Shown here: piece by piece, positions 7,234 through 63,558 of the stretch
Layout of the letters: each line of letters opens with the position of its first letter
Numbering within the stretch: position 1 is the first letter of the stretch
Assembly: GCA_023213315.1 (NCBI GenBank)
Contig: JAKCPI010001876.1
Coordinates: 5,001-69,000, forward strand
From: Euborellia annulipes
Taxonomy: Eukaryota > Arthropoda > Insecta > Dermaptera > Anisolabididae
DNA: 64,000 bases
Reading direction: 5' to 3'
Translations under genes and position numbers: made by a program
Notes under the pieces: generated by a model
What the model saw: only the letters and a program-made list of their open reading frames with translations
The model's database searches: none
What the model was told of the DNA's origin: nothing

Positions 7234-7330
7234 TTGGATGAAAGGTTCCCACCTGTATTATTTATTTTTTGTTGGATGAAAGGTTCCCACCTATATTATT
7301 TATTTTTTGTTGGATGTAAGGTTCCCACCT
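7234..7330 (+). repeat. Short minisatellite, 38-bp period
   Basis: TTGGATG(A/T)AAGGTTCCCACC starts at 7234, 7272 and 7310, giving about 2.6 copies of a 38-bp unit that runs into a (TA)n tract. Confidence 0.7.
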
Positions 7331-7352
7331 ATATATATATATATATATATAT

Positions 7353-7402
7353 ACCGACCGTTTACACCGACGACATACTTATATATATAAATATATATAA
7401 GC

Positions 7403-7448
<46 letters not shown>

Positions 7449-8332: not shown

Positions 8333-8523
8333 ATATATATATATGGCGTGATCCTATATGACGGTAAGTAAATTTTTATTAAAATTAGGAAGTTTTCAGG
8401 GAGAATTCACCCTCCCTTCCCATTATTATTCTAAAAGAGGTGGCGGTAAGCCAATTTGATCGAGATATATGCCAAAATAAGGAAAATTTTGAAGAAATAC
8501 AAGGACCACATTAACCATTAAAA

Positions 8524-11831: not shown

Positions 11832-14540
11832 AGTAAGGCTAATTTTCGGTGTCTAAAACTTTTCCGGGAATCCGTTCATCGGGGGAGGGGAGGGAAATAT
11901 GACCTCTGATCGGAAAATGACCCGACTTTAGTCTACTAATCGACCTTACAAATCATAAAATAACTGAAAAACTAATTATTTCTTGAATATATTAAAAAAC
12001 TCGAATAATGAATGAAAAATCCTTGTTTGAAAACTCAAGAGAGGGGGGAACAAATTTGCCAAGGTGACAACGATGACTAATACTTAATGAATTATGCAAA
12101 CATGAATGAGGAGGAGGCGAAGGAACCTGAGTTGCCAGTTTCGAAATCTTCTTCAGCCCAAAAGATTCATTAATTCATCATGCCTGATCAAATAATTTAT
12201 TGATGAACGATATAAATAAATGAAAAAACTCCAAACATCCTGGAAGAGGGAGAGGGAGTTAGTTCAACGTCCTGAAATTTAATTTTTTACTGAATTGGAC
12301 AAACACTATATTTTATCTAGCATTTTTTTCAAAAAAATTTAAAAAATTCATTTCTTCAGGAAAAAAGAGAATATTTTTCTCGTAATAATCAAGGTGTCCA
12401 GTAAAGCCTCAATTTTTTTCGGCTTGGAAAGCAAGAATTAATAATGAGTGACGTCGATTGACCATTTGACATTTAGTGGCAATCGACAGAACAAATAATC
12501 AATCAAATATTGATAGTGATATATATTCATTAGTATATACCAGTATGTATTTGCTAGCCTTTCTGAGAGCTCATTCATTTTTTCAAATGTCATATGAAAT
12601 TTCAAGATATTTAAAAAAATTAGGTCATCTTTGTTTATCTTATTAATTCAGTTAATTTAAATATGTCTGTTAAAAGAATTTTCAACTTTTTTACTTTGAT
12701 TATTAGAATAAGATTCGACCATGTTGGGACCCCAAAAAGACTATTTTGTGAATTACCAATAAGTGATGTTTTCTTACTATAAAAAATACAAGACCAGATT
12801 GACTGACTATATGGGTCAATCAAAAATTAAGTAAGATTTCCTACTAGATTGACTATTCTAGTGAAGTGTTTTAACCAAGACGGAGAAGGGGACGCCAGGA
12901 AAAATGTTCTAAAATTTGTAATCAGTGGAAGAATTGAAAATTAATTTTTTTTAATTAAAAAAAAATTAGTTTTTCGCACAAACAAATAAGTCCCCAAAGA
13001 AAGAAGCTCATTCCAATTTATAAGCGTTATTCTAACGGATTGGAGTCGAATTTGATTCATAACGAGTTGCAGGATGGATCATGAACTTGCGAAAAAATGG
13101 AAAAAAGTGTATTTCGAAAAATCATGGATTGAGCCGTTTTTGGAACTACACGTCTCAAATATTTGAAATTTGAATTAGGATGATTTATAAATAAAATGAA
13201 AATAATTCCTAATTAAATAAAGTAAATTATTAATATATAATATATTATAATCTATTGTATTTAAGGTACGCGTTTCGAAAAACCGTTAGAAGACGATTCA
13301 GTACCGAGTTACTCTAGGCGGCAAGAGATGGCGTTAGTTTTTCCCATAGGAAAACAAGGGATTTATTCCATTTTATTTGAAAGATTTCAGCTAATTAATT
13401 AAGGATAAAAAATTAATTATTTTATAACACAATGATTACTAGTTTAATTATCTATAAGATATAGAGCGAATTTTTTAAAAATATCTTTTATTTAATGCGA
13501 TTAATCTAAAAAAAATTTTATTTTTTCGAAAATCAAAAAAAGGGCTTCTATAAGCTGTAGATAATTTAAATAGCTTTAATTTAAAAAAAGATTTGAGGTC
13601 GATAGCTTCAAAATTGTGGCCGCTGGAATCTACCAAAATTAGGAAGAAACACACAGTCATTTGGGTTGCCTATCTTGCAGCAAACATTCAGAAACGAAAT
13701 CATTCGCCTCACGGCATATATTTTACAAGACACCCTTCAAATGACGAGTCTTTCTAAAACAATTGGATCAAAACATAATCCGAAGACAATTTAACGCAAC
13801 CTTTTATGTTAATGACCCCCATTTTACATAAATAGAATGGTGACCTCGGCCGTGTCACTCACTAACCAGAATCAAGGTTAAAACCTCGGATAGGTGACCT
13901 CTTGCTCGCATTTGGATGAAGAATAAAAAAATATATTGGACAGCAAAACACTCAAGGAAATGAAATTTTTTTCCAACCATAAAAGGTAAATTCATGAAAA
14001 TAGTAGTAAAAAGATATTTTAGAACTATGAATAAAACAGGTAAATAAATGATTCATCTACGAGAGCTGCATCGATTGACTATGACCTTGACAGAGAGAAT
14101 TTCTTTTAAATGAATTAATTATAAATAAAATCCTATCTGATTGAGATTGCTTTTAAACTAATTTAAATATTATTATAGATCAAATAAATTTATATGAATA
14201 TGTATTTTATTAGTATAATATTTTAATCATTCCTTTATAACCGGATGAGGAATTATTTTAACCTTTTGTCAGCCTTGATAAAAAATTTTTCTTCTTCCTG
14301 GTTCATCTTTTAAAAAACTTGAGCTTAGGCAACCAAAATGATTAGCTGTCGGAAGTGTTGTCTTAAAAGTAGCTTTCCCCCTTCAATTACATTAAAAAAA
14401 GATTATTTATTTATTTTAAAAATATTGGTTTGGTCGATTAAGCTCAAGGCTCAATTTTCCAGTAAACCAGGCGAGTTTAATAAAAAATCTTTTATTAGAT
14501 TTAGACTGGCAACCGTAGGCACTAGTTGAAACATTGTAAT
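11832..14540. other. Intergenic stretch, nothing recognised
   Basis: About 2.7 kb with no splice-flanked exon and no repeat shared with the rest of the window. The longest open frames (such as 13475-13660, minus) show no domain. Confidence 0.4.
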
Positions 14541-14542
14541 AT

Positions 14543-14712
14543 TTTAATAGGTAAAATTTTAAAAACACTTGGTAATTGTGTCAAGTTAAATTTATTTATA
14601 TAAATACTAAATACTTAATAAGTTAAGGGTCTAAAGAAGTATTAAGTATTTATATAAATAAATTTAACTTGAAAAAATTATCAAGTATTTTTATAATTTT
14701 ACCTATTAAAAT
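14543..14712. repeat. 170-bp palindrome
   Basis: ATTTTAATAGGTAAAATT on the left is the inverse of the right end. The inner arms (AAGTTAAATTTATTTATATA) are also complementary around 14627. It directly abuts the hammerhead-bearing element. Confidence 0.65.
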
Positions 14713-14890
14713 AAAAAAAAAAATTATTTTATTTTTATTTACGGACGTTTTGCCAATCACGACCTTCATCGGGTAAAATATTGTTAATTAGGAGATTGTT
14801 AATTAAGATCGTGTATAATTAACAATATTTGCCCTGATGAAGGTAGACCGAAACGTCGGCGAATAAAAATAAAATAAAATATTTTTTTAT
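14713..14890. mobile_element. Foldback element with hammerhead-like ends
   Basis: The left side carries an inverted, decayed hammerhead-like motif at about 14741-14780. The right side carries a good one at 14827-14864. TATTGTTAATTA and its inverse lie between them. It belongs with the elements at 41.9, 43.8, 47.5, 60.2 and 62.3 kb. Confidence 0.6.
14827..14864 (+). ncRNA. Hammerhead ribozyme-like motif
   Basis: Stem I strands ATTTGCC and GGCGAAT pair over 7 bp with one G-U. Between them lie CTGATGA, a minimal stem II AGGTAGACC, GAAAC and the cleavage triplet GTC. Stem III would be only AC/GT, as in the minimal type I hammerheads known from Penelope-like elements. One extra A lies between CTGATGA and stem II, so activity is uncertain. 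Confidence 0.6.
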
Positions 14891-14963
14891 TTAATCTTTT
14901 ATTTAATTCATTCGGATTCTGACTAACAAGTGAAATTTTTTCTAATCATGTAAATTAAATTAA

Positions 14964-19464: not shown

Positions 19465-20385
19465 GAAATAAATACTTTCGGATAATTGGAATATGAAAAT
19501 TTTTTGAATTTTCTTTTTTCTAAATGCACCAAATCCAAGGGCGGATCCAAAGGAGTTTTTTTTTTTTTTGGGGGGGGAGGTAATCTGGTGTGACTGGTCG
19601 CATGGCACCCAACTTTCTCTTACTTTCAGTAATTTAAAGTTGAATTCTGTACTTGTTTACCAGAATTTTTGTGTCGAAATAGATTTGTACACACACCCCT
19701 ACCCAGTGGCGTACCGAGGGGGGCCCCCGCGGAGGGGGCGGTCCGCCCCAGGCCCCGAGCCGGCATAGGCCCCCAAATATTCATTAAAAAAAAATTTAAT
19801 GAAAATTTCTCTTTGAGAGGTCCCGGAGCCCTCAGGGCTCAAATGAAAACGGAAATATTTAAATAAAAAAAAAATAAAAAATTTAATGAAATTTTCTCTT
19901 TGAGAGGCTCTGACCCCTTGGGCTTCAGGGATAATCGGTATTTTAAAAATATTTTTGTGTATGGAGGAGAGGAATATTTAAAGATGAGCACCCCCGCTCC
20001 CAAAAAAAAATTCAATATAAGGCCCCCACTTCTAGTGCCGCCCCAGGCCCCCAACTGCCTCGGTACGCCTCTGCCCCTACCGACCATTTTGAGGGACCAA
20101 CTTTTTTGGAATCAGGATTCTAAAAAAGTGGGTCCCTCAAAATGGTGTGTAGAGGTGTGTGATCAAATATATTTCGGCACAAAAAATAGAATATAGAATG
20201 CGACTTTAAATTACCGAAAGTAAGAGAAAGTTGTGTGCTGTGCGACCAGTCACACTAGATTACCCCCGCCCCCCCCCAAAAAAAATCCTTTAGATTCACC
20301 CTTGGATTAGGTGAATTTATAGAATAATAAAGAAAATTTAAAAAATTTTCATATTCCAAATATCCGAAAGTCTCGAAATAAATAT
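19465..20385. repeat. Nested inverted repeat with GGGCGGATCC ends
   Basis: An outer inverted pair (CTTTCGGATAATTGGAATAT at the left) surrounds a CCAAGGGCGGATCC...-ended element at 19533-20306. That element carries the two halves of the CTGGTGTGAC hairpin family at 19581-19672 and 20179-20262. It is further interrupted by a hAT-like element at 19704-20073 and a hairpin of CCATTTTGAGGGACC arms at about 20083-20145. No gene. Confidence 0.7.
19704..20073. mobile_element. hAT-like element with exact 8-bp duplication
   Basis: Ends CAGTGGCGTACCGAGG and inverse (CCTCGGTACGCCTCTG). CCCCTACC occurs immediately on both sides (19696-19703 and 20074-20081). The body is G/C-tract rich and has no transposase, so it is non-autonomous. 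Confidence 0.85.
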
Positions 20386-33607: not shown

Positions 33608-36600
33608 TTATAAATAAGTCCTAGGATGGGTTTTGATATGAACTTTAAGGTCACCCATTAGTGAAAACGTCTCTTCACAAATATTGCATTTATAAGGTTT
33701 TTCGCCAGGATGAGTTCTAATGTGAATATTAAGGTCCCCTATAAGCGAGAAGAGTTTACCACAAATGTCACATTTATAAGGTTTCTCCCCTGAATGGCTT
33801 CGTATAACGTGCTTTTTAAGATTTCCTTCTAAAGAAAACTCCTTTTTACAAACTTCACATTTGTAAGGTTTTTCAACGGTATGAGTTAATAAATGACGTT
33901 TAAGATGCTGTAATTTAGTAAATTGTTTGTCACAAATAGTACACCTATTTAAATCTTCCGTAGAGTGAGTGAGCTGATGTCGTTTGAGATGAGCTAGGAG
34001 AGTAAATTTTCTATTACACACATCACACTTAAAAGGTTTCTCGCCGGTGTGAGTTCTAATATGTGGTTTAAGAGCAGATAATTGGGCAAATTTCTTTCCA
34101 CAAAGTTCACATCTAAATGGCTTTTCGCCAGTGTGTATTCGAAGGTGAGATTGTAATTTTGAAGGGTAAACAAACTTTTTGTTACAATATTTGCAAACAT
34201 TTCTTTGTATATCTGAATTCGTCTTCTTTAAAAATGTCTCTAAAAAAAAAAAATTTAATTATTTTAATAAATGAGTTTTGAAAATAAATAAATTGATTTA
34301 ATTACCAGTATTTGCCTGGAAAAATAAAATATATTTATGTAAAGAATCTATTCCCTTTGCTATACATTTTGTATAGTGTTTATTCAAATAAAACAAATTA
34401 ATAAAATTTGTTTTACATAATAAACAAGGAAAAACTGGACCTGGAAAAAATTATTTTTATTAATTATAATTAATCTAAAGCAAAATAGATCGGAAGCTTT
34501 GTTATATATATATAGTAATAGTCTGATGAGATAAAATTGCTTGGATTTTGTACTGAAGGGGGTTTCTTTATTTAGAAGGCTAAGTCACTTGACCAATGGC
34601 TATGAATGAAGAAACCAGTTTTTTTTTTAAACACTCACACTTCTTTCTCACTCACACTTACATTCACACAGTCTTTTCGGCAACTTAGGCCATTTACACT
34701 TTTACGATATCCTTTATAGAGATTAATATACATATTAGGGGTCCAGGCATTCTTATTTAAGCCATTTGGTATCCAAATGGTTTAAATAAAATCATCGGAC
34801 TGCCTGGGGTCCGAACCCGCGACTTTTGGTATAAGTGGTTAGCACGCTAACCCCTACACCAAGCCCTGAGGGCAAACCAGTTCTTACTATCACAAAATAA
34901 GAGAATATTTTTACTTAAGATTCTAAAGGGGAAGGAAAAATCTGGCATGATTGGACGACAGCATTCTGTGCTTGTCACACCAGATTTTTTTGTGTCTAAA
35001 TATTTGGAAATTTGATTTATAATATACCTAAAAAAAAAAAATTAAAGAGCATTAACTTAAGACAAAAAAATTTAATAAAATGTCCTTCTGATGTAAAAAA
35101 AAAAGTTGACCTCACAAAAATTTATTAGTTTAAATAATTCTTTTCTGAGATTATTTATCCAAAATCTTCCGAAGTGGTTATCTAGGTGACGCTGAGCGAA
35201 AGATCCTTTGGGGTTTTGAAGGTCCACTAATATTCACAAAAGATGCACTTCCTATGGAACATAAAGTTAAAAATTAAGTGAGTCTGGCATGTATTAAAAA
35301 TTTTTAACAAAGAGATGATTCGAATATTATATTTTAATACTGTATTAACTAATTAAAGAAACTATTGGATTTTTCATGTTATCAATCTACCAAAATAAAA
35401 GCATAAATCTATTAGTTATTTAGTTAAATCATTTTGTTTTTTAGACGACCATAGGTAATATTTTTCCACCCATATCTCTATCAAGTCAGAATTTCAGTCG
35501 GCAGGATGGTCATTTAATAAATAGGATTGAATTAATATAATCCAAAGAATTCACCGTTGGCACCAGTTGAATCATTCTTAAATTTCATCATCTAATCATA
35601 GATAAATAAATAACTCAAGGTTAAGTTTCAAAAGGATTTTATTTTAGCTTAGGCTGAACGCACACCAATTGAGCAAAAACGTTTTTAGACAAAACGTTTT
35701 GTCCAAGAGCGTTTTGCTCAATTGGTGTGAAACTGCTCATATAAACTAAAATAAAAACCTTTTTGAAACTTAAGCTTGTGTTTTTTTATTCATCTATAAT
35801 TAGATGATAATTTAATTAAATACGAATAATTATCTTGGCTGGAATGTATGTGACTCAAATGAATTAGATTGGTCCAAAATTAACGATGATTTTGTTTTCT
35901 TTTACTTTCATTAAATTCACTGTACAAACACATCGTTCTCTGTTTATAGATAAAATCGCATGTGGAAAATCTTATTAATGTCTAGTATTGTATATATATT
36001 ATATATTATGTTCTTCCACTTTGAAAAGGATGTAAAGTCATTCCGAGATCTGAATAAATCTGTAAATAACAAGTTGATTGAGGTTTAAAAAGTTAAAATC
36101 GAGGGGCACAAGAAGAGGTTGTAAAAGGGCGGCCTACAGATTTTAATGATGATCGTCTTCTGGCAGCCTTGGAAAAGGAGCAGAGTTTGGCAGGCCGAAC
36201 ATTTCAATGTCGATCATTCCAGGATTGTCTCAAAAAATTATACAACTCTCCGACAAAATGAAAGCAGATCGTGTTTACATTTTCAGAGAATTATTGTTTT
36301 TAAGGCAATGGACCATAGTTCGATGTTCAGTCACCATTCGGGTTGTCAAATTCTTGTCCTTTTCCATGGCAGTCAAAGATTTTGGATCATCAAAATTTTA
36401 TCGCGCTCCTATTCTTGAGGTTTGAGTCGCTCGATTTTAAACAATCTTTTAACTTCGTTGTTTGTGAAATGACTTTGAAACTTTCCATCCTTTTTCAAAA
36501 AGTGATAGATCTTAAAATGTCAAACTGAATATGTATATGTGCATTTTTATCTATAAACAGAGAAAGATGTTTATTAATTAAAAACAGTGCAATGAAAGTA

Positions 36601-38609: not shown

Positions 38610-39066
38610 CAGGTCCTATAAATATCTGGGCACCTGGCTCAACGCAGAGGGGCAGCAGTCACAAAGTGATATTGGCCAAAAATAAGCTTTTGGAAAAATG
38701 CGTACCTTGATTACATCCTGGTACTTAAGATTAGAGCTAAGGATGAGATTGCTCCGTTGCTACGCTCTGCATACTCTATTTTATGGCATTGAAGCTTGGA
38801 CCCTGACTGAAGAAACAACAAAAAAGAATGCACTTCGAGTCTCCTGGGTTGATAAAGTGACAAATGAAGAAATCCTCAGGAGAAGGAACAAAAGAAAGGA
38901 GGTTCTTGACTATATAAAAAGAAAAGAACTGCAATACTTGGGTCATGTCTGTCGGAGGACCAGATACCATCTTCTTCAGTTAATAATGCAGGGAAAGATA
39001 CAAGGAAGAAGAGGGCCTGGGAGAAGAAGAATCTCTTGGCTTAGAAAATTGAGCGAGTGGTTCCGA
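38610..39066 (+). pseudogene. Non-LTR retrotransposon pol, C-terminal fragment
   Basis: Conceptual translation gives YKYLGTWLNAEG, then LRCYALHTLFYGIEAWTL and VSWVDKVTNEEILRR, then GKIQGRRGPGRRRISWL. This series is typical of the region after the reverse-transcriptase domain in jockey/RTE-like LINEs (YLG..., YG.EAWTL, W.DKVTNEE, GKI.G.RGPGRRR). A stop or frameshift near 38680 and loss of the linker before VSW show it is dead. Its upstream end is interrupted by the SINE. Confidence 0.8.
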
Positions 39067-39164
39067 GCTGCAAATTCAAGAGTGACTTTCTATTGGTGTT
39101 TTGTTTGTTTTCAAAAGTTTAAAATGGAAATATCTCAGAACTATATTATATTTGTGGGTTAGCA

Positions 39165-39691: not shown

Positions 39692-42600
39692 TTAAGGTTT
39701 GATCGAATCGAGGATCCAATCCATATAATATCCCACCCTGGTATAAACACCAGGTTGGTTGTACGTGGCACAGACCTTCGGGCCAAACGACACGATCCCA
39801 TATTGTACATACCGGGCTATCTGGTTAATGTAACCGATGTGAATAAGAGGACCGCCGCTATCGCCATTGCAGGAGTCAGCGCCTTCGGTAGAGCCTCCAG
39901 CGCAGTATTGTCGCCCCGTTATCTGGATACAATACAGATAAAAAGGCCTTCAAATGTTACTACATTTTTTATATTTAATTAGAGAAAAATGATGAAGAAA
40001 TGTGAACAAGGGCGGAGTCCAAATAGAAAAAAAATTTGATCCAGGATGGGCAGAACTCGAGTAGGAGAAAAATCTGGTGTGACTGGTCGCACAGCACGCA
40101 ACTTTTTTTTATTTTCGGTAATTTAAAGTTGTATTTTATGCTTGTCACAGAAATTTGCAGTAGTACATTAGAATTCAAGATGTAAAATTTATAAACATAC
40201 ACCGATTTTATTTGAAAACTTATTTAAAACGGCCTGTGATCATTGAACAAAACGTTTTGTTCTTGGACAAAACATTTTTGATCAATCAGTGTGCATTAGC
40301 ATAGAGCAAAACGTTTTGCTCTTGAACGGTGTGCGTTGGTATTGAGCAAAACTCTTACTTATTAAGTGAAAATAAAATTAACCCGAAACGGTTCATTGGA
40401 TTGTGAAAAATCGGAGGGTTTTTATTTTTGACTGCCCTGTGCTCCAGGAGGCGTAATAGCCTCAGAGCAAATAAACGTCTATCTAAACCCAAATTTTTTT
40501 GGATCACTTTCATTTTCTAAAAATTGAAATCTTTTTTTTATCTATGTAAAAATATAAATGTACCAAAATAATATAACATCGTGTCCTTTTAGGGTAAGCC
40601 CATGTTAGTTATCGGTAAATCCGTATTCCGCGGCATGGGTCAAAAGAACTATTTTCAGTTTACTTGAGTCGGAGCAAGTGCACAGGACTTGAAAACGACT
40701 GCAGAATTCATAGTTGAATACAGTATTTGTTTTTAATAAATAATACAAAATGTGGTCTACAAAACGAACTCTCATAAAAATAGCAATTTTTCAATCTACT
40801 TCTTCCTCCCAAATTGAAAAAAAAAAAACATTAAATTAAAAAATAACTTACATTAATTGTTTGTCTATATACCTCCGCACATCGTTGTAGAGGAAAAATT
40901 GGAACGTCTGCTTTTAATAAATCATCACTCGAACTATTTCCTGAAAATATGGAGATAAATTAATTATTTTTATTCAAAAAAATATAATATTTTTAAATTA
41001 CCATTTTCTGTAGCGCCCCAACCAGAAACTGTAGGACGTTGACCTTCAAGGTTATTATTTTGAAGTTCATCACCAACAGGCAAACAAATTGGACGAATAA
41101 ATTCTAAAAAATAAAAAAATTTTTATTCCTATGCATCTAAAAACAATAGATACGGTAAATAAATTTTTACCACGTTGAAAATAGCCTTTTAAAAAATACA
41201 CATTGATACTTACTATTAAAATCGGTACGACCAGCAAGTCTAATAAGACCTATATCATTTTCCAATCTAGATTTAGAGAACCCCGGAAAAGGGATTAATT
41301 CTTCGATATTGAAATCTCGTGGCGATGGAGCACATAATTCTTCTCCGTCGTCGTCAAATTCACAATCTGGATCTTTCGAAGTATCATGTTCGCCAATTCT
41401 AACTCCAACCCTAAGGACAAAAAGTGCATCGTGAAAAAAAATATCCTATAAATGAAATTTCAAGAGGTTCGTTTTCATTATTTAATATACAATGTCAATT
41501 AATTTTAGGAACGATTTTCAAGCCCAAAGTATGCTGTTTTTTTATGGTTTAAATTCGTGAGCATTTTACATAACAGAATGCTTTTTTTTTAATTACGATT
41601 AATTAAAAAGTATATTTTTTATATTTATAGAAAATGCAAAAAACGTTCTATTATGAAAATTTTAATGTTTTTTTTAAACCTAAAAATGTAAAAATCATTA
41701 AGGGGTCGTTCGCATATTACGTAACGCCTTTTTTAAAAATTTTCTAGCCCCCCCCCCATGTCACAGTTAGTCACATACAAACAAACCCCCCTACAAATTT
41801 AGTATTGGAAGTTTTTTATATAGCTGGTTAAATGATATAGTAGAAGGAGAATAAAAAGAGAGAGCAGCTAATTATATTTTCTTTTATTATTCTCTCAGTG
41901 CTGACGTTTTGGTCCTGTTTAGGGCAATAATGACAACCCTAATGACCTGTTTAGGGCCATCCTCAGAGCATTAGGGTTGTCATCATTGCCCTAAACAGGA
42001 CCAAAACGTCAGCACTGAGGGAATAATAAAAGAAAATATAATTATTAGCTGCTCTCTCTTTTTATTCTCCTTCTACTACCCCCTACAAATGTTACCTCAC
42101 AACATAGAACTACCCCCCCCCCCCCCCCCCGAATAAATGTATTTCTTATACAAGATTCATATCATTTTTTTTTAAATTTCATAAATTCAACTTTGAATTG
42201 TTAAGTCACACTTAGAAAAACCCCTGGACCCCCCCATGTCACAATTAGTAGAGTTTTGTCCAACCCCCCCCCCCCCCCTAACGGGTTTCGTAATATGTGG
42301 ACGAACCCTAATATCCAACCTATAATAATTAAATGGTGACGAAGTGAAAAATAAATTTCTTATTTATTTAAAAATTTACGGCCAAATAGTTCAGCACTCT
42401 TGCAAAAGACGGCAGCCTTGTGTAACAGCCGTCATTATCAAATCACTTATAAGCCTAAATATATATTTTTTTTAACACTCACACTCACACACACATTCAC
42501 AGTCTTTTAATTTAAGACTTTGACGATAACCGTTAATTATTAATATATCTATTGGGGGTCCAGGCATTTCTATTTAAGCCATTTGGTATCCAAAGTTGCA

Positions 42601-45600
42601 AAACTCTCCCACTCTTAATAGCGTGAAAGATTTGCAACTTAATCGCCTGTTGTTGATTTTTTCTTTATTTAAAATTAAATTGCCTAATAATTAATTTATC
42701 TAAATGGAAGGAGTTTACAAATTGTTAGATTCCAATTCTATTGAAAATCTAATCTTTAATTAATTTTGACCTAGTTAAAAAAAATACCTTCATAAGGTTA
42801 TACTGACACAGAGAACCCATTCAGATTCTGAATACAATGCGCTGCCGTTAAGACGTAACGAGTGTTGATGACAGAGCCTCCACATCGGAAACTGGTGGTC
42901 GAGCCTATATTAGAAACCAAATTAAGAGTGATTAGCAGAACAAATCAAAACGTTGAGTCAAGTAGGTCGCTTGTTTACCTTGTCTATAGGCGATGAGAGC
43001 CATCCATGGGAATTCAAACACGCTCGTTTTGTTGCCATTAAATACCCGAATTGTGTTGGATCGGCCACAAGTTGGTCCATTAATCAGAGCTAAATTTGGA
43101 TGTTCGTTAATTATCCTTGGTAAGGATATTATTGCTGTTGCCGGGACTGCGGTAGCGGGTGCAGGTCTTTGTTGATTAGAACAACAAATAAGAGGAGTTT
43201 TCCCCTGGAAAATGGAAAAAAAATAAATAACAATATTTCCGGTTTCAAAGGGAATTCCAGTATTTATATCATTTTAAAAAAGTGTGACAAATATGTAAAT
43301 CCTTCTTCACGCTTCGTTTAATTTTTATTAGTAAATTAATAATGCAAGAGAAACAAAATATTTTGAAAAAATAATCCTTGTATTTTACTATTACTTTTTC
43401 TAATTGTGAGAGAGGTATCCTTTCCTAAATTTTGTTTAAAAAAAGGAAATAGATAAATTGATAAAATTTAAAAAAAAAACTTTTTTAGTAGAGTTGGAGA
43501 ATAACAACCCAGCAATTTTATAAAGGATTTTTTTTTTTAATTTGTTTAAGGTCTTTTTCGTAATAGGGGCTATTTCAAATGAAATAAATTTTTACTTTCT
43601 CTTACCTCTATATATATTAATATATAGAAAGAGAAAGAAAGTGATTCATGTCAAAAATTCAATTTAAGGTTCAGAAAATCCCAAATGAGCAACGCAGCTA
43701 GTCGTTTTTCCAATTTTTATTTAACATAAAGTGAAAATGCCTGGACCCTAATATATATAAATTCATAAATAACGGTTATCGTAAATGTCTTATATGGCCT
43801 GAGCTGCCGAAAAGACAGTGTGAATTGTGTGTGTGAGTGTGAGTGTGAATGAGAAAAAAGTGTGAATGTTTTTTAAAACAAAAAAAAAAAAACATAAAGT
43901 GCCAGGGCCAACGTTTCGGTCACATATAGGAGCATCATCATGTGTCTGGCACTTTATGTTAAATAAAAATTTAAAAAACGACTAGCTGCCTTGCTCATTT
44001 GGGATTTCCGGAACCTTAAATTCTATTATCAGGTGTATAACCTCGATTAAAAAAAAAATTCAATGTCGAGATTTTGATGGATATTCAGGTTTTGAGGTCC
44101 CCTGAATCAAAAAAGTGGTTTTTCACAATATGGGGTCTATTTATGAGTGTGTCTGTCTGTGAACAAAATATCACAAGAACAAAAAGAACTAAGAGATTGA
44201 AATTTTATATTTAAGTTAGGTAACCCCCTAGGAAGTAACAAGAAGCTTTTGAACAAAATCGAGTAAAAAGTACTAGTACTTTACAGATGTACTTTTTCAG
44301 CTTTTTTTGAATTTCTCAAAATTCGCTTTAACGATTTTGATTAAAATTCAAAAATCATTCATTTTTTAGATGTTCTTTCAAATGTATATTCTCATTTTGC
44401 TCTCAAATTGTTTGAAGGACACTTTACTATTGTACTTCATAGGAAAGTTAGGAGAAATGGATCCCTTAGTAACAAAATATAAATATTTTCCCATGTTTAT
44501 AAATGTTACATCTTGAATTTTAATATTAAATATATCTCCACACAAAAATCTGGTGTGAAAGCATCAGAACACAAGTTTCAATTTCCGAAGGTAAGAGAAA
44601 GTTGTGTGTTGTGCGACCAGTCACCCCAGATTTTTCTCGCTTGGGACGGGAAGCGAACCTGGGGCCCTAGGTACTGTAAGCTAATGTCTTCTCTCTGAGC
44701 CACCGGTCAGGGGCTTACAGGAACGTTAATTTATACAATTTGTCGGCGATTGTCTCATAACATTCATTTAAATAATTATCTAATCAATTTATATGTAAAT
44801 TTGAAATTTTTTTACTGGCATAAAAAAGACCATGATGCGAAAAACACTTTTTTGGACTCAGGGGAACTCAAAACGTGTATATCCACCAAAATAAATATTT
44901 GTCATGAAACCAATACTTTCTCTATATGTTAACATATATAGGTAAGAGAAAGGTGAAATATTGACACCATCTGTGAGAAGATAAAAACTACGAGTGACGC
45001 CATCCCCTTTTTCCAGCTAGGTTGTGGCATTTAATAAAATAAAATAATGGATATTAGAAAAGTTGCCTCCAGTTTTGAGCAGGATACGTCCATGACATGA
45101 AAGATCTATACCGGTATATCAGGATCGGATAGTTATTTTTTGAAGAGACAATTCAGTCCAGATGCAAAAACCAAAATCGTTAGTGATACCTGGAAACCGC
45201 AATGAGCTTTTTTCAATTCGTCAATCATATTTTGAGGTAAGGGGCGACCAGCTGCCTGAAGTCTCCGATCTATTTCCGTACATTGTTTTATGGGTACACA
45301 GACGCCTTGGGTTCTTGAAGCTTCAATCGTGCAATCTTCACCAATGGATTGGCCTCCTGAAAAAAAAACAAGAGGTAGTGATGTTGTAGATACTAGGAAA
45401 TATAAAGAATTGAATATGGATGATGTAAAAAACGATTAATCTATTTCTCAAATGATCTCGCGGTTTCTTTGATACCTCAATTAATTTTTTTTTTTTTTGT
45501 TGGAAAGGGGGAATTTTATTTAATTTCTTGGAACTTTTCTAACGCCTACGATTTATATTTATGAATTTTTTTCCTTAATTTTTTTTTTGCATTTTTAAAA

Positions 45601-48234
45601 TAATATCTCTTTTTTCTTTTTCTCATATCCAGGCCGGGAAAAAAATTACAATAATCAATATTTAATTAAAAAGAGATTACTTTAAAAAAAATATGCTGAA
45701 ATTATATATATTATAGGTGAAATTCTCCAAAATAAGGAATTATTTTTTAGAAATTTTCTTAAAGATATCTTCAAATGAGTCGACTCGATATTAATTATGT
45801 GAGCTGGAAACTTACTAATAGTGAAAACTTTGAAAAAAATTAATAAATTTAATAATCTGGCAAGTTCGGGTTGAAAAAAGCTCGGATTTATGAAAAAAAA
45901 AATGGTAAGATAAGTATAGTCAGGAGTAAGGGATAACTTATTTGGGTATTAGAAGGGGCCAGGGCAAGTCCGGTCCCCTGGGGCGATACCGCCCCCCCCC
46001 TTACACCCCTATGAAAACGGTAATACTATAAGAGCCTGATTGAAATCTTGCAGCCAACGCTAGATTAATCATTCCAAGTTGATAATAATATCTATGCGAC
46101 AATTTTATTAACTTGTAAGTTAAAAAAGTTGTTTTTGGTAAATTTGATCTAACTCTTTAATTTTGCTCTAATTTGTTGAGAATAAAATGAAATTGGTCCT
46201 TAAGAAATCTTTAAGATTTTTATCGGAATATGAGACATTTATGCAAATCCTTTGGTATTCAATATAATACTAAATAAAATTTTGTCTCTCAGTACGAGAG
46301 TCGAACTCCAAAAAAAAAGCCATAATGGGCAGTTTGTGGAGCATATATATCAAATGAATTGTGAAACAGAATTTTTATTCTGTGTTAAATGGGCTCATGG
46401 AATGAATAGTTATTTTCTACCTTTATAGCATTGTTTTTAAAAGGGATAGTGTTATTACCCTCATTCAGAGAGAAGATATTCGCGCTTCCCATCCCAATCT
46501 AGAAAAATTTATTTCAAATGAATTGGCTAACAATCATTTAAAATAAATAGGGAGATGGGGTCTAAATGGTCTAAACCTTAAAGTGCAGTCAATAATATTT
46601 TTTTTGTAGACCTGCTTCAGATAAAAATAAACATTATTATTATCCAATTCCTCAGAATTATAGGAAATAATTTTAAGAAGACATGTGGAGCCAATTTTTA
46701 TTTAGCCGTGATGGCGTTAAGAAGAAAAAATTAGCTGAGCAAATCTTTCTTCTGAAAGCCAACATTTTATGTTGTGATCTATCACTTGCTATCGAATCGC
46801 TCAGTTGGATGCATGTTTCTCCCCTCGCTTCTCCAAATGTTTTATTTGAATCGGTGGCAGATCTACAAAAATATCATATTGTTGGCTGTTAGAAAAACCT
46901 AAATGATTAGATGAAAAAATTCAATTGTGAGACTCTAGATATTTTTTGTCTAGTCTAAATTTTTCCCAAAGTTTTGTCTGATATTTTTTTTGGGTACAAA
47001 TGATCTTGAATTGGATACCCTTTGAACTTAAGCTTCTCAGTATAAAATATTATAAATTAAAATTTAAAAGACATTTGGTCACTGATTATAAATAAATATT
47101 AGTAATGATTGATTTCTTGTATATTGTTTTTTTTTTATATAAGGTAAAGAACGAGCAGCCAGGTGTAAGTACAGTCTGTCATAGGATCGTAGACCTGACA
47201 GAGAAATCAAGTTTTCAGTAAATATATTAAATTTCAAGGTAGTTTATAGCATTTTCAAGATTCCGGGACGGAGGTTTTCCTTAATTAGTAATTAATTCAC
47301 TGTGGCTCTTCGAATTTTAAGTAGTTTATAGCTGTGTGTTTAATTATAATGATAATAAATGAAGCGAAATGCAGATATGTTTTTTTCTTTTTTATTAATC
47401 TCAGCACTCACGGTGTCGTTTCAATCCCGGTAGGGATCATCTTCAGAGCTGGTAATATTGTATTTGTAGGATTTTTCATATATTCAAATCTCATGACAAT
47501 ATTCATAATATACAAAGCGGCGAATACAATTTATTTAAACAACAATATATACAGCGTGTATATTATGTATATTGTCATGAGATTTGAAAATATGAAAAAT
47601 CGTACACATACACATTACGCTCTGAAGATGATCCCTAGCCGGGATCGAAACGTCAGCGTGTGCTGAGATTAATATAAAAGAAAAAAAGCATTTATCTTCA
47701 TTAATTATTACCATTATAAATATATTAATTTATTTCTATTTTTTATTTTTAATAAATAGATCGGTTATTAGCGAATCAACATCGACGATAAAAGATAAAA
47801 TTATTATTATTTATGCCTGGTTGAAATCTACCTTTAAATTAAATATATTTAAAATATTCATTTTAGTGTTTATTAATTGAAAAAAATTCCAAAAAATTTT
47901 TCGTAAATATATTAATTTATTTTTATTTTTTCCTAGTTATTAATATTTTATAACTATAAATAGCTGCTATTTAAATGTTCGAAATCGATAAATAAATCAA
48001 ATGTCATTCACTCTGCATCCTGTTTCCTATAGTAAGATAATGTTAAAAAATAAAATTGCTCATTCTTTTTCTGAAAAGTGAGATCATTCTATGTATTTAC
48101 TGTTTACTACAGAATAATAAACAAAGATATCACCCTGAATTTACAAATTGAGTTTATAGGGAACAAGAAAACTCACGACTGAATGGCGCAGTGCCGACGA
48201 TGTTAAGGAGTAGGAGTAGCCAGTACGTAGCCAT
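39692..48234 (-). CDS. Clip-domain trypsin-like serine protease, 388 aa, 8 exons
   Basis: Exons: 48234-48177, 45356-45190, 43204-42979, 42904-42808, 41410-41214, 41103-41002, 40940-40852, 39922-39692. All join in frame (1167 nt). Residues 1-19 ([10 protein letters not shown]...) form a signal peptide, so the protein is secreted. A clip domain follows with six Cys (28, 39, 45, 72, 82, 83), then a Pro/Ala-rich linker. Cys121 precedes the activation site Arg128|Val129-Phe-Asn-Gly. The catalytic domain has TAAHC (His173), ENDIGLIRL (Asp235) and GDSGGPL (Ser334). Asp328, six residues before Ser334, predicts trypsin-like cleavage after Arg/Lys. Such arthropod zymogens act in haemolymph cascades (melanisation, Toll activation, clotting); which one is not determined. 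The VFNG new N-terminus replaces the usual IVGG. The exon 4 donor (GT|GTCAGT) was chosen by phase. A possible AATAAA lies at 39616-39611. Confidence 0.9.
40069..40156. repeat. CTGGTGTGAC hairpin repeat in the last protease intron
   Basis: AAATCTGGTGTGACTGGTCG opens and CTTGTCACAG closes. TTTCGGTAATTTAAAG is at the centre. At 40240-40350 a GAACAAAACGTTTTGTTC-rich foldback of the 35.6-kb family follows. Confidence 0.65.
41842..42080. mobile_element. Foldback element with hammerhead-like motif, protease intron 4
   Basis: The arms (ATATAGTAGAAGGAGAATAA and inverse) pair over roughly 100 bp. On the minus strand CTGAGGA at 41966-41960, an extended stem II made of two copies of CCCTAAACAGG, and AAAACGTC at about 41900 outline a hammerhead in which GAAA has become AAAA. 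The opposite arm repeats the ACCAAAACGTCAGCAC part. Confidence 0.6.
42468..42600 (-). mobile_element. SINE fragment in protease intron 4
   Basis: T run, CACACACACATTCACAGTC, GACGATAACCGTTAATTA and GGGGTCCAGGCATTTC in inverted SINE order. The head is missing. Confidence 0.65.
43664..44053 (-). mobile_element. Foldback retroelement-like insertion with hammerhead relic
   Basis: Flanked by the 11-bp duplication AAAAATTCAAT (43653-43663 and 44054-44064). The arms GAGCAACGCAGCTAGTCG and inverse pair. On the minus strand ATGATGA, a long stem II, ACCGAAAC and GTT resemble a hammerhead with a changed first core base. A SINE is nested in the left arm. Confidence 0.65.
43734..43890 (+). mobile_element. 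5'-truncated SINE nested in a foldback element
   Basis: Bounded by the duplication AACATAAAGTG (43723-43733 and 43891-43901). It starts AAAATGCCTGGACCC and ends in a poly-A tail. The nesting shows the foldback element is the older insertion. Confidence 0.85.
44636..44712 (-). tRNA. tRNA-like sequence, pseudogene
   Basis: On the minus strand TGGCTCAGAGA resembles an A-box and GGTTCGCTTCC a B-box with one mismatch each, at tRNA-like spacing. The acceptor stem is not convincing. It directly abuts the CTGGTGTGAC hairpin and differs from the SINE head. Confidence 0.4.
45480..47340. other. Protease intron 1, mostly empty
   Basis: AT-rich intron. Plus-strand frames near 46320-46520 and 46683-46892 look faintly protein-like but have no recognisable domain or splice support. 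Confidence 0.35.
47343..47718. mobile_element. Foldback element with hammerhead motif, protease intron 1
   Basis: The arms begin AATTATAATGATAATAAATG and pair with the right end. Both arms carry the hammerhead-like region. The right one (47617-47659) is intact; the left, on the minus strand (about 47451-47406), has GAC in place of GTC. A TATACAAAGCGGCG... core lies between them. Confidence 0.7.
47617..47659 (+). ncRNA. Hammerhead ribozyme-like motif
   Basis: Stem I ACGCT / AGCGT (5 bp), core CTGAAGA, one extra T, stem II GATCCC / GGGATC (6 bp, loop TAGCC), GAAAC and GTC before AGCGT. Predicted cleavage follows C47654. Stem III would be 2 bp. Confidence 0.7.
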
Positions 48235-59000: not shown

Positions 59001-62000
59001 TGTGTATTTATGCAACTAATCAACATACAATAAAAAAGATAAATATCTTAATTATGTACTAACAACGAAAAATAAATGTTAATATTTTATTAAAATAAAA
59101 GAAAGTGAAATCTCGTCATCTTCAGTTTAGAAGTCTATTCAAGACCCTAGTAATAGAATTATACTGGCTGTTTCATATATGTTATAGCTACCTGGAATTG
59201 TTAATTTTTTTAACGATCCATAATCAATTCGCCGTTTTTCCCATCTGAAATTTTCTTTAACGCAGTTCTCATTTTCCCAATTTGAATTTTGTTTTACATT
59301 TGTTTAGAAAGAAATCCATCCATTCTTTTTTCTGAAATAAGAGAATATATTAATTTATTTGTATAAATAATTATATTTAGAATTTTGCTATAGGACAAGA
59401 AGAATTGTTGCCTAATTAATACTTGAATATGATTAGGCCTATAATGAACAAATGATGATTATTTTTCGAAACTAAATTGTTCAATTGGTTTGCCATAAAA
59501 AGCACATACGATTAAAGCTGTCTTATTAATTCCCATCGAACACCTGTGAAAATGTTGACGAAGAGGTTGAAAAAAATTAAATTAATCATCCGAAGGAATT
59601 AAAATTTCCTCCGACTAAAATATTATTTAATAGGCTCAAGAGACTTTTGGTAAGAGAAGTTTGCTTGAATGTCGCATTTCTTTATTAAATTATATGCAAG
59701 ATATAGGCCTATATCAGAGGTGTCCAAACTTCGGCCTGCGGGCCAAACCCGGCCCGATAGAGAATTTTATCCGGCCCGCGGATGTTTTTGATTTTTCAAG
59801 TCGAAAATTTAAAAAAAATTGAAAAATTATGTATAATAAATAAAGGCTTTTTAAATTTATTAAAAAAAATAAAAATGGGGGAACATAGGCCCACATACAA
59901 TTTTTTAATTATAAAGATTTAAAACAAGAATTTCAAAAGCGATTTTCTGATCTTGACATAAATTAATTTTTGAGGTTGTGGCTGTGATGTGATTATAATG
60001 GAGAATTGGAGATATCAGCCAAATTGGAATTATCTAGGTTCAATAAAACTCCCAGAATAAGACGTTTCGGTCTGAAAGTGCACATGAGATTGGATCATTT
60101 TATTTTGTCAATTTTAAAATTTATTTGTTCAGAGATAATTATCTCTGAGCTTTGGCACAGGAGCCATATAATTTTGTATGAAGCAAATAAATTTTAAAAT
60201 TGACAAATCCTGGTTTGATCACATGTGCACTTGCATTATGTGTATAATTCTCAATAACTGAAGATGGCCAAATAAATTCAGACCGAAACGTCTTATTCTG
60301 GGAGTTTTGTTGAACCTAGATAATTCCAATTTGGCTGATATCTCCAATTCTCCATTATAATTGACATAAATTCTAAGGAAATTCATCTCTTTCAAAATCC
60401 ATTTGATTACAATGTTAGAGAAATTACAAGTCAGTTTCAAATGGAAATTATTGATCTTCAAGCTAACGATCAAATCAAGAAATACAAGGAAGTAAACTTG
60501 GTCGATTTTTATAAATATTTGGATGCAAAAGAGTTTCCAAATTTAAAACAATTTGCATGTAAATTTATTTCTATGTTTGGGACTACCTATATGTGCGAAC
60601 AAACATTTTCTAGGTATTTTCCAAGTATTTGAAAAAAAGTAGGCCTACAGGGTAAATTTATCCGATGATAATCTCAAATCACTGCTTGTAATTGGTGTGA
60701 CAGATTTTAATCTTAACTACAAAGAAATACTTCAAAAAGAAAGCACAGTTCTATCATCATAAAAACTTATTTCTATTGATAAATTGTTGAGTTTGGTGGC
60801 TGTAGATATTTAAATTAGGAGGGGACGGGAGCCTTCCCGGGGAGACAGCAGCAAGGTAAAATAAAAAACGTTATGATCTGTCGCCGACGTTTCGAGCGAT
60901 AACGTTTTTTATTTTACCTGGCTGCTGTCTCCCGGGAAGGCTCCCGTCCCCTTCTAACTTATTTCTATTTTTTATAATTTAGCCATATTTGTTTAGTGTA
61001 TTAAATGTAAAAAACAAATGTCAATGATATCTTAATCATAATGCGTTTTTTAATTCTCATGTTCACTAGGCTCGTTTCAAATAGATTTAAATTCTAATTT
61101 GGCCCTTGAGTTTGGACACCTCTGGCCTACATCCTTGAGGAAGTAAAAAAGAAAATAAAGAATTTAATTGAACCTGAGTAAACTGGGCTTAATGGAACCT
61201 ATCAGTTTCCCAATAACAAATATTGAACTAACTAAAAGAATAATAGAATGATGATGAAGTTTTTTTAAATTTCCTCTTATGGGAGTGAGTAGTAAAAAAT
61301 AGTAGTACTTAATGAGATTACAAAGTCAACTTGTGAACTTACTAAAATTTAAAAAATCCTTCAATTTTTTTCAATTAGAACCAAGCCGCCCAAAAGATAT
61401 ATTTAAATTGATGATATTTCCACTTTTTCAAAAGGTTTGAATGCTATTTAAGTAATGTAAACTTACCTTTAGATCAATGAAAAATTATAAAAGAAAATGG
61501 CTTCATCAGAATTGAGGAAACTCGAGATAAATATCCAGAATCATATAAATATCTTCTGATCAAAATAAAACTAGAAATGTCAAAACATTCAGTTATAATA
61601 TCAACATCCTCTTGACGATTATAAACACTTTTTTTTTACTTTTTCAATTAATAATTAAAATCAAAGGTTAAATATGAAGGATGAAAGAACGCCATTCAAT
61701 GAATATATAAAAATTCAAATAGAGAAGCAAAGCCAACCTGGAAGGAAAAGAGTATAGAAGAATGAATCGGTAAAAGAAATTGCAAAAATAATTTTCTCAA
61801 ACTTTCTGAATTATATTATTATCATTATAAATTCTTATGATTGTTATTTAAAATAGATTTAATTATTTAAATTACAGTACTTTATAATATTAATAAATAA
61901 TTAATATATTTTAAAACAAGCACCCCTAGCGGATTTCATTGGAAGTACCGTTTACCTTATATAAATAAACTTTTGTCTCAGTGAAAATGTTTTGAAAATA

Positions 62001-63558
62001 AAAAGATGAATTAAGTAGAAGAAATTTCGATGGTTGAGTGGTAATTATTACGAGTAGGAAGATGTATGGCAACCAGCAAGTGATTGATTATCGTCGACGT
62101 TTCGGGATCACGTCGATCCCATCTTCAGGGCGATAAACTGTTGTTGCTTAGATGGATGCAATTTTGGTTCATACAAAATAAATAATTAAATTTGCATATA
62201 CCATATATAGATGTATATGAGAATTGCCGTAGGCATTTGGGCTATATTTTTAATTTGTGGCAAATGGGCCCGAAACGATAGTACCTACTGCCCAAGATTG
62301 AAAGACTGAGTCTTGGGCAGTACTATCGTTTCGGGCCCATTTGCCACAAATTAAAAATTTAGCCCAAATGCCTACGGCAATTCTCATATACATCTATATA
62401 TGGTATATGCAAATTTAATTATTTATTTTGTATGAACCAAAATTGCATCCATCTAAGCAACAACAACAACAGTTTATCGTCCTGAAGATGGGATCGACGT
62501 GATCCCGAAACGTCGACGATAATCAATCACTTGCTGGCTGCATATATCTTCCTACTCCTAATAAAAGATGAATTTTTTTTTTTTTTTAATACTTCATTAA
62601 GTACATATTAAGGATATATTTTATTACAGGAAAGAGAGGCAGTGGCGTCATTTCAATTTTTTCTTGGGGGGGGCAAACATTTTTTTTTTTCTTAAAATTT
62701 ATTTACAAATGGGTACTCAAATTTGGCCAAAACATATTTAATTTAATTAATTGTTTAATTTTGTACAGTTTGTATACTCGTAGATGTATTTTGGAGTATT
62801 TTATTTAGAATAATATAAAATTTTATAAAAATCAGAGCCCTTGGGGGGGGCAAATGCCCCCCTGCCCCCCAAATGACGCCACTGACGGAGTTTGAAATCT
62901 CCATGGATCTCGCGTGTATAAGATATATAGATCATACTAAAGACACATCGTCTTTTGTAAGGCCCCCTCGAACCTGGGCTTTTATCCATGAGATTTTTCT
63001 CTTCTCCTGAATGTTCATATCCAAAATTACTTATCTTGCAAGTTTTTTATCATCCACACATCCTGATTTATCTAGATTCCTATTTATTTATGGAGCTACA
63101 ATATCGTACCCAATGAAGTTTATCTGAGGTGCGATTATTGCTTGTGAAAAATTTAATATTTTTTCCTTTTTCATTATGTTAAGGAAGAAGAAGAGCAGTG
63201 GATATCGGGAGAAGAACTCTTCACTGATGGAAGCAGCGATGAGGAGATGTCTTCTGCAAGAGCTGCTGGCTCGGTGACAGATCATGTCGATGCTATTCGG
63301 CCACCAAAGCTCCGTCCTAAATTAGGTGGATGTACCAAGCGAACTGGGAAACTGAGAAAGACAAGACCTCATTCCATTGCTACAACCACTCCTGTATTAT
63401 CCGAACAAGCTAAGGCTGATTGTTCAATAGAAAATAAAAATGAACCCGAGGGAATTTCGTGGAGGCCCAAACGAGGAAGTATTAAACTAGCATCTCTTTC
63501 CCAGCAAGGCAAGAAAGAAATTTTCTCAAAATATAATTTACAAAAAATTATAGAGTGA
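56064..63558 (+). CDS. Unknown 151-aa protein, 2 coding exons
   Basis: Coding exon 1 (56064-56144) begins MSSKNEETHRIEHLKIINSQ and ends KKE before a strong donor, GTAAGA. Coding exon 2 (63184-63558) starts after TTCATTATGTTAAG. Both are phase 0, and the acidic run KKE|EEEEQW continues smoothly across the junction. Residues 9-30 look helical and could form a short coiled coil. Residues 30-50 are acidic (GEELFTDGSSDEE). The remaining part is basic and Pro/Ser/Thr-rich (RPPKLRPKLGG, RTGKLRKTRPHS), ending FSKYNLQKIIE. The charge layout fits a small nuclear or adaptor protein, but I do not recognise the family. Possible AATAAA signals lie at 63843 and 63881, after a SINE in the 3' region. The intron exceeds 7 kb. 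Confidence 0.75.
57053..57246. mobile_element. hAT-like MITE with exact 8-bp duplication
   Basis: Ends CATGGGCATAACTAGAG and CTCTAGTTACGCCCATG. CCTGTGTC occurs on both sides (57045-57052 and 57247-57254). The interior consists of G- and C-runs. The CATGGGC ends resemble those of the element at 32712-33003. Confidence 0.85.
57571..57831. mobile_element. hAT-like MITE with exact 8-bp duplication
   Basis: The right end GTTACGCCACTG is matched by CACAAGCGTAAC at the left. AGCTTATC occurs on both sides (57563-57570 and 57832-57839). The body contains GGGTCCCGGGCCCTCTCAAA, shared with the hAT-like element at 19704-20073. Confidence 0.8.
57822..58189 (+). repeat. 51-bp direct duplication around an inserted element
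   Basis: 57822-57872 (TACGCCACTGAGCTTATC... through GATAGATAGATAG) is repeated at 58139-58189. Between them lies the CAAGGGTGGATAC...GGATCCGCCCTTG element (57884-58138). The repeat contains the end of the hAT-like element, so the duplication is younger than that insertion. Confidence 0.8.
57884..58138. mobile_element. GGGTGGATAC...GGATCCGCCCTTG-ended element
   Basis: Close relative of 54797-55067, including the GCTGTGCGACGAGTCACACC segment, but with shorter G/C runs. No coding capacity. Confidence 0.7.
58565..58705 (-). mobile_element. SINE fragment, inverted
   Basis: T run, CACACACATTCACACAGTC, TTTTCGGCAACTAAGGG and GACGATAACCGTTATTAAT in inverted SINE order. The tRNA-like head is absent. 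Confidence 0.7.
58710..59706. other. Intron sequence, nothing recognised
   Basis: AT-rich stretch inside the large intron of the 151-aa gene. Confidence 0.4.
59965..60360 (+). mobile_element. Foldback retroelement-like insertion with hammerhead motif
   Basis: Bounded by the exact 12-bp duplication TTGACATAAATT (59953-59964 and 60361-60372) inside the hAT transposase relic, whose reading frame confirms the insertion. The arms ATAATGGAGAATTGGAGATA and inverse pair over roughly 85 bp. The right arm carries the hammerhead motif. Confidence 0.8.
60253..60297 (+). ncRNA. Hammerhead ribozyme-like motif
   Basis: Stem I AATAA / TTATT (5 bp), core CTGAAGA, a weak stem II (TGGCC ... GACC with one mismatch), GAAAC and GTC. 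Predicted cleavage follows C60292. The weak stem II makes activity doubtful. Confidence 0.55.
60816..60957. repeat. 142-bp palindrome with CGAAACGTCGGC
   Basis: GAAGGGGACGGGAGCC-type arms and AAAATAAAAAACGTTAT arms pair. The centre holds GCCGACGTTTCGAGCG, whose inverse contains the CGAAACGTC half of the hammerhead core. CTGANGA is missing. Confidence 0.6.
61140..62000. other. Intron sequence, nothing recognised
   Basis: AT-rich; no exon or repeat seen. Confidence 0.4.
62088..62136 (-). ncRNA. Hammerhead ribozyme-like motif (left arm)
   Basis: Minus strand: stem I TTATCGCC / GACGATAA (7 of 8 pairs), CTGAAGA, extra T, stem II GGGATC / GATCCC (loop GACGT), GAAAC and GTC. Mirror image of the motif at 62474-62522. 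Confidence 0.7.
62474..62522 (+). ncRNA. Hammerhead ribozyme-like motif (best copy)
   Basis: Stem I TTATCGTC / GACGATAA pairs perfectly over 8 bp. The core CTGAAGA fits CUGANGA. Stem II GGGATC / GATCCC has 6 perfect pairs around the loop GACGT. GAAAC and GTC follow, with predicted cleavage after C62514. The only deviation from the standard motif is one T between CTGAAGA and stem II. Stem III would be AC/GT, which in known minimal hammerheads needs dimerisation. Confidence 0.75.
62640..62884. mobile_element. CAGTGGCGTCATTT-ended MITE
   Basis: Perfect 14-bp inverted ends (CAGTGGCGTCATTT). The body is rich in G and C runs. The flanking octamers do not match, so the hAT assignment rests on the CAGTGGCG end sequence only. 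Confidence 0.65.

Follow-up and report, generated by a model that had tools for sequence, protein, structure and literature searches.

Penelope-like elements (PLEs) and metazoan retrozymes are the closest described systems to the DNA element analysed here. The minimal hammerhead ribozymes of PLEs are described, in the passages cited, as type I cores without a usable stem III that occur in many dispersed copies and are thought to act as tandem dimers (PMC7761336, PMC6155905). For PAc, a Penelope/Poseidon PLE of Anolis, the hammerhead cut is reported to lie 26 bp past the start codon of an open reading frame (ORF) that starts at the base of stem II. Reverse transcription is reported to start at an AC-rich stem-loop, 111-118 bp into the ORF, with a second reverse transcription start site defining an optional tail; hammerhead cleavage was seen only with the protein, and ribozyme mutants were still inserted in vitro (PMC11167929). 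In the Adineta vaga PLEs typical copies are completed by an inverted pseudo-LTR (pLTR), mostly in head-to-head arrangement; several copies have target duplications of 8-10 bp and some have none, one of the inverted pLTRs may bear a tail of 31 bp, and the junctions contain palindromes (PMC3846280). Inverted pLTRs and 3' extensions are also a topic of a curation guide (PMC8969392). Metazoan retrozymes are described as carrying canonical hammerheads in tandem direct repeats of 150-450 bp (PMC7229834). The integration mode of PLEs and the frequent inversion of their copies are an unsettled question in the field: the passages on Adineta favour self-priming on an antisense template (PMC3846280), and the PAc protein was found to cut and extend both target strands in vitro, with a preference for ATT (PMC11167929).

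The window (the whole stretch of 64,000 nt that was analysed) is eukaryotic DNA with many mobile elements and a G+C content of 23-36% in 2-kb steps. The element under study, foldback G, has the following parts:

62001..62012 (no strand assigned): left copy of the target duplication, AAAAGATGAATT, exact; the sequence occurs twice on the window + strand
62013..62562 (no strand assigned): foldback element G, two head-to-head pseudo-LTR-like arms, defined by inverted repeats and arm alignment
62013..62044 (- strand): one-sided tail of 32 nt without an inverted counterpart, with 10 C and 1 G on the RNA strand
62088..62136 (- strand): left-arm hammerhead, C3 at 62128, predicted cut after C62096, stem I with 7 of 8 pairs, stem II the same as in the right arm
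62285..62319 (no strand assigned): foldback centre, a 35-nt spacer that separates the main arms and has a 12-bp inverted repeat inside it
62474..62522 (+ strand): right-arm hammerhead, C3 at 62482, predicted cut after C62514, stem I with 8 of 8 pairs
62488..62490 (+ strand): ATG overlapping core position A9, its frame shut after 4 codons
62563..62574 (no strand assigned): right copy of the target duplication, AAAAGATGAATT, exact 12-bp repeat

The initial annotation had described an exact 12-bp duplication around nearly complete inverted arms, each with a hammerhead-like core and a stem I of 8/8 pairs on the right and 7/8 on the left, and this description is correct. Complementarity of the arms rises from outside to inside, from 92% (62045-62068 with 62541-62564) through 97% (62069-62146 with 62464-62541) to 99% (62139-62284 with 62320-62465). 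Facing outward, both arms read CTGAAGA-T-GGGATC...GATCCC-GAAAC-GTC, and the core CTGAAGA...GAAACGTC occupies 62482-62514 on the + strand and 62128-62096 on the - strand. To the description we can add the 32-nt tail, the single T between CTGAAGA and stem II, which makes the ATG, and the form of stem III, a self-complementary ACGT without a loop, so that closure within one molecule is impossible; the predicted fold of the isolated right-arm ribozyme consists of exactly two stems. Just downstream of G, at 62640-62884, lies a small element with 14-bp inverted ends (CAGTGGCGTCATTT) that looks like a miniature inverted-repeat transposon.

Element G is one of seven foldbacks (A to G) in the window, roughly one every 9 kb, which are unrelated to one another in sequence and carry hammerhead cores or remnants of them. 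The other six, with their duplications, are:

14709..14892 (no strand assigned): foldback A, full core in the right arm, degenerate core in the left arm, no target duplication found
41799..42078 (no strand assigned): foldback B, core CTGAGGA/AAAACGTC, left tail of 39 nt
41787-41798 and 42079-42090: duplication of foldback B, CCCCCTACAAAT
43664..44053 (no strand assigned): foldback C, with one degenerate core (ATGATGA/GAAACGTT) in the centre, a tail on the right and a dispersed repeat that interrupts the left arm
43653-43663 and 44054-44064: 11-bp duplication of foldback C, an 11-mer present 5 times in the window
47339..47712 (no strand assigned): foldback D, full core in the right arm, GAC mutated in the left arm, no established target duplication
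59965..60360 (no strand assigned): foldback E, within a hAT relic, full core in the right arm only, left tail
59953-59964 and 60361-60372: duplication of foldback E, TTGACATAAATT
60778..60957 (no strand assigned): foldback F, in the same hAT relic as E, one GAAACGTC in the centre without the 5' half of the core, left tail
Copies ending at 60777 and 60969: duplication of foldback F, 12 bp (14 bp with a 2-bp overlap)

Core-like sequence is present in both arms of A, D and G, the left arms of A and D being decayed, and the right arm of B is truncated inside the ribozyme. In blastn comparisons among the seven at an E value of 0.01, no matches were found besides A/T runs and the dispersed repeat in C, and judged by their sequences A to G look like seven families of one common design. 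The repeat in the left arm of C (43734-43891) is SINE-like, with an A-run at one end and duplications of about 10 bp (ACATAAAGTG) at 43724 and 43892; nine further sites in the window are similar to it, e.g. 10095, 38448, 52561, 54314 and 58703. Another A/T-rich foldback (14540-14713) abuts A, and the two are possibly nested insertions. At 2017-2940 and 7341-8344 lie long, nearly perfect inverted repeats that have neither a ribozyme core nor a target duplication of at least 11 bp.

The exact core CTGANGA N5-30 GAAACGTC was found 5 times in the window, where 100 shuffles gave an expectation of 0.00, and all five matches lie in foldbacks. A scored scan with a relaxed core returned seven window matches of at least 7, where 40 shuffles averaged 0.00 such matches and never scored above 6.5; six are in ribozyme foldbacks, the core of C is at background, and the seventh match (39431, - strand) was rejected for two core mismatches, a 3-pair stem I and a position outside the listed foldbacks. 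As a further background, cores were scanned in viral contigs, and among the matches listed (at least 120) none had both stems; at the stem thresholds of that scan three of the five exact window cores would pass (both arms of G and the right arm of D), and the right arms of A and E fail, stem II being short in A and E.

Covariation was assessed in an alignment of seven of the nine arms, drawn from six families and including both arms of G, in which 85.5% of the stem cells are paired, against at most 46.4% when the partners are slid, with changes on both sides in 9 of 10 pairs. In a permutation test with one arm per family (six of the nine arms; the left arms of G and of the decayed A and D were omitted), the native pairing of stem I was the best of all 720 matchings of 5' and 3' strands, and for stem II the native value was reached by 24, 24 and 8 of 720 permutations with 3, 4 and 6 pairs, respectively, the support for stem II being weaker than that for stem I. 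To judge from these alignments, a conserved putative hammerhead core with stems I and II is present across the families. Of the checks proposed in the initial annotation, the search for covariance support in other copies, run across the six families, was positive, and the search with the Rfam hammerhead models found nothing in the whole window at gathering scores, nor in 61900-62700 at E values up to 10. The set shows a covarying hammerhead variant that the Rfam models miss in this window. An Rfam match to MIR7994 (45 bits, gathering score 100) was discarded as reflecting only the long hairpin.

Evidence of insertion comes from the flanks. Direct repeats of 11-12 bp flank five of the seven foldbacks (B, C, E, F and G); for A and D a target duplication was looked for and none was established, and an AT-only 12-mer noticed by eye at D was rejected for low complexity. 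Repeats with fewer than three letters were filtered out of the flanking-repeat tests. In 1500 random window intervals of similar size, a flanking repeat of at least 12 bp was found in 0.9% and one of at least 11 bp in 1.1%. None of 13 control foldbacks without a ribozyme (11 independent ones, as two overlapping pairs are included) has an 11-bp flanking repeat; the best of them, an inverted-repeat element at 19474-20371 without a ribozyme core, has a 10-bp direct repeat (GAAATAAATA) at its flanks. The duplication of C is weak because its AT-rich 11-mer occurs five times on the window + strand; the other four repeats occur twice each. The hAT-type DNA transposon relic that is host to E and F spans 59715-61124 and has perfect 16-bp terminal repeats (CAGAGGTGTCCAAACT) at 59715-59730 and 61109-61124. 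When the flanks of E are joined with one copy of the repeat, the hAT frame is open across the junction, whereas the occupied site breaks it, and the right flank of E matches Pfam Dimer_Tnp_hAT (E 6.6e-05). The same join at the empty site of F gave no long frame.

All five elements with duplications have 27-39 nt outside the inverted repeat at exactly one end, on the left in B, E, F and G and on the right in C. Read on the RNA strand, the tails are rich in C and poor in G (43 C to 8 G, versus 71 to 50 in the adjoining arm; Fisher p = 0.0013). The untailed ends are similar to one another (ACTCCTAAT, CTCCATTATAA, TCCCCTTCTAA, CCTTCTACTA and CTGAACCTTAA). When the window was scanned with a one-tail rule, B, C, E and G passed, F fell outside the tolerance with its repeat overlapping the arm, and the remaining matches lay in an AT microsatellite (7328-8300). 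The target ends give a hint, in a post hoc comparison with n=5: the end that would serve as primer on the tail side is ATT in three elements (G, E and F), AAT in B and TTT in C, and the ends on the other side are TTT, CAA, AAG, GGG and AAT, ATT making up 4.5% of 3-mers. Differences between the arms of one element are unevenly placed: E has 1 in 83 outer versus 8 in 49 inner positions (p = 0.0016) and G has 4 in 26 outer versus 4 in 225 (p = 0.005), both on stretches chosen post hoc. Since these clusters lie oppositely, outer in G and inner in E, two templates, gene conversion and later change fit them alike.

The published passages on PLEs and retrozymes allow a close comparison. In G the ATG at 62488 lies 26 nt from the predicted cut after C62514, and the ATG of the left arm lies 110 nt from the tailed end, next to 26 bp and 111-118 bp in PAc (PMC11167929). 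PAc, as far as it is described there, resembles the foldbacks in its minimal hammerhead at the ORF start, its two reverse transcription start sites with a tail and its AC-rich start region, and it differs from them in having a full ORF and tandem copies. The Adineta PLEs share with the foldbacks inverted head-to-head pLTRs, target duplications, a one-sided tail and junction palindromes (PMC3846280); according to the same passages, however, their copies mostly carry an RT-GIY-YIG ORF and a few hold captured sequence between solo pLTRs, whereas the foldbacks of the window have no ORF, arms that meet directly, and duplications of 11-12 bp. The minimal PLE hammerheads (Cervera 2014, Lunse 2017) likewise lack a usable stem III and are, as cited, suggested to act as tandem dimers; those of the foldbacks stand head to head with one sense copy per strand. 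Metazoan retrozymes, in the passages cited, are likewise small and non-autonomous, with type I hammerheads and, when present, duplications (PMC7229834), and the foldbacks differ from them in being inverted, not tandem, and in the loopless stem III of their hammerheads.

Of the cis features of PLEs, the foldbacks have the minimal type I hammerhead in a pLTR near an ORF start, the one-sided tail (27-39 nt in all five with duplications, versus about 30-40 bp) and a duplication of variable length (five of seven). Regular expressions applied to all six frames of the window returned no RT or GIY-YIG motif. Read from the core ATG, the frame stays open for 4 codons in each arm of G, for 3 in E and 13 in B, and for 12 and 10 in the two arms of D. 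The arms of G extend 75-110 nt past the ATG, and the frames close short of this, so the foldbacks are not simply truncated PLE genes; the same stop in both arms suggests that the template was already without an ORF. On these sequence features the foldbacks can be regarded as PLE-type in most cis features tested, and as lacking the enzyme. Because they have no ORF and the window has no RT or GIY-YIG motif, we file them as PLE-like and non-autonomous and not as PLEs, and the enzyme would have to come from elsewhere. The initial proposal of a non-autonomous Penelope-type retroelement with minimal hammerheads stands, the geometry and the tail matching the published passages (PMC11167929, PMC3846280) and the ribozyme covarying. 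Its claim that the layout was undescribed does not, as inverted head-to-head pLTRs with a 31-bp tail and duplications have been published, in passages that are silent on ribozymes (PMC3846280). In the literature no account was found of inverted pLTR pairs that lack an ORF, bear ribozymes and form a multi-family class, which is weak evidence of absence as the search did not extend to the likeliest sources (Cervera 2014, Lunse 2017, Craig 2021); the ORF-less form, the density and the one-tail pattern seem to be new here.

We propose, with reasonable though limited confidence, that G is an ORF-less Penelope-type pLTR pair, head to head, inserted in trans by a PLE reverse transcriptase-endonuclease. 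Each arm would be a cDNA, with the RNA 3' end at the target junction and the 5' end at the centre. To judge from the duplication, the PLE enzyme would cut both target strands about 12 bp apart, and the 3' end exposed on each strand would prime reverse transcription inside the pLTR RNA; priming probably took place on both cut strands, from a distal start site on one, which would leave the tail, and from a proximal start site on the other, which would leave none. Both cDNAs would run back through the hammerhead, as both arms of G do, and then be joined at the centre. This reading is favoured by the shared design in seven foldbacks that share no sequence, the flanking repeats of five of them, their one-sided C-rich tails, the covariation of stem I, the distances from ATG to cut and to tailed end as in PAc (PMC11167929), the inverted pLTRs with a one-sided tail in Adineta (PMC3846280), and the hAT frame restored at the empty site of E. 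Against it stand the lack of an RT or GIY-YIG motif in the window, of an established duplication in A and D and of a long frame across the join at F, the five occurrences of the C duplication and the background score of the C core, arm differences that give no clean two-template signal, and the passage that describes some Adineta PLE copies without target duplications (PMC3846280).

The role of the ribozyme bears on the initial suggestion that the element was mobilised through ribozyme-processed RNA, which the present results do not support. Both arms of G cross the cleavage site, so the template must have been intact (or rejoined) at this point; in the predicted fold of the full-length G transcript the right ribozyme is paired with the left arm over its whole length of 49 nt; each strand has one sense and one antisense ribozyme, so that no tandem dimer is available in cis; and the ribozyme mutants of PAc insert in vitro in the experiments cited (PMC11167929). 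A retrozyme-like element, processed by its ribozyme, perhaps through circular RNA, and only secondarily inverted, would agree with the small size, the non-autonomous nature and the type I hammerheads, and metazoan retrozymes and PLEs have been suggested to share machinery (PMC7761336); the lack of a tandem unit, arms that do not start at the ribozyme cut, the loopless stem III and the burial of the ribozyme in the full transcript make such an origin very doubtful. The ribozyme is best seen as an inherited, conserved part of the source RNA and not as the motor of the foldback; it would probably be active in that RNA as a dimer or with the help of protein, and it may be dispensable for the inverted insertion itself.

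How the second arm arose is the point on which self-priming differs from priming at both target strands. In the proposal made for Adineta PLEs from palindromes at inverted junctions (PMC3846280, as cited), a palindrome lets the first cDNA, or an antisense transcript, turn back and serve as its own template, so that the second arm is made from the first, and this would suit the 12-bp inverted repeat in the centre of G, a 10-bp one in the centre of B, and the fact that the arms within each foldback are of one family. An arm copied in this way should repeat the tail, yet the second arm is untailed in 5/5, and the uneven arm differences in E and G also weigh against it, although gene conversion or later deletions could explain them; we regard self-priming as an unlikely but serious competitor. 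A DNA transposon of the foldback or miniature inverted-repeat kind, dependent on a transposase and with an incidental ribozyme, would account for inverted repeats with target duplications, and the window has many ribozyme-less inverted repeats. In 5/5 with duplications one extreme end is a tail beyond the inverted repeat, which is evidence against a DNA transposon whose terminal inverted repeats reach both ends, the families have no common terminal repeat, and the ribozyme covaries, all of which renders a transposon highly improbable. Inversion of a LINE by twin priming was rejected by reasoning, whole arms being duplicated in inverse. An accidental hammerhead-like string in palindromic AT-rich DNA might be invoked for the weak members A, C and E, with their short or degenerate stems and the background score of C, but next to nothing is left of chance in view of the seven matches of at least 7 (six in foldbacks) when shuffles reached at most 6.5 (mean 0.00), the lack of any viral-contig match with both stems among those listed (at least 120), and the covariation; chance is refuted for the set, and a single weak member could still be accidental.

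Beyond the preferred reading of G, insertion by a PLE enzyme acting in trans, we venture a more general proposal that is tentative and which we would not yet call likely: that ORF-less pLTR foldbacks are abundant, multi-family, PLE-dependent parasites which record asymmetric dual-primed integration, the nick at ATT priming cDNA from the distal tail site, a nick about 12 bp away on the opposite strand priming a second cDNA from the proximal site, and the two being joined at the centre. If so, each insertion should have one tail, on the ATT side. Small foldbacks with a duplication on both sides and a single tail are compact records of integration, and should a single tail on the ATT side prove to be the rule across the genome, a count would be enough to tell dual priming from self-priming. 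Elsewhere in the window, a LINE fragment lies at 38686-39162 with 25 protein relatives, the few named ones being from insects and a mollusc, so that an invertebrate is the probable host, and the most gene-like frame seen is an open frame of 216 codons at 33608-34258 (- strand), which by eye contains repeated units of the C2H2 zinc-finger type.
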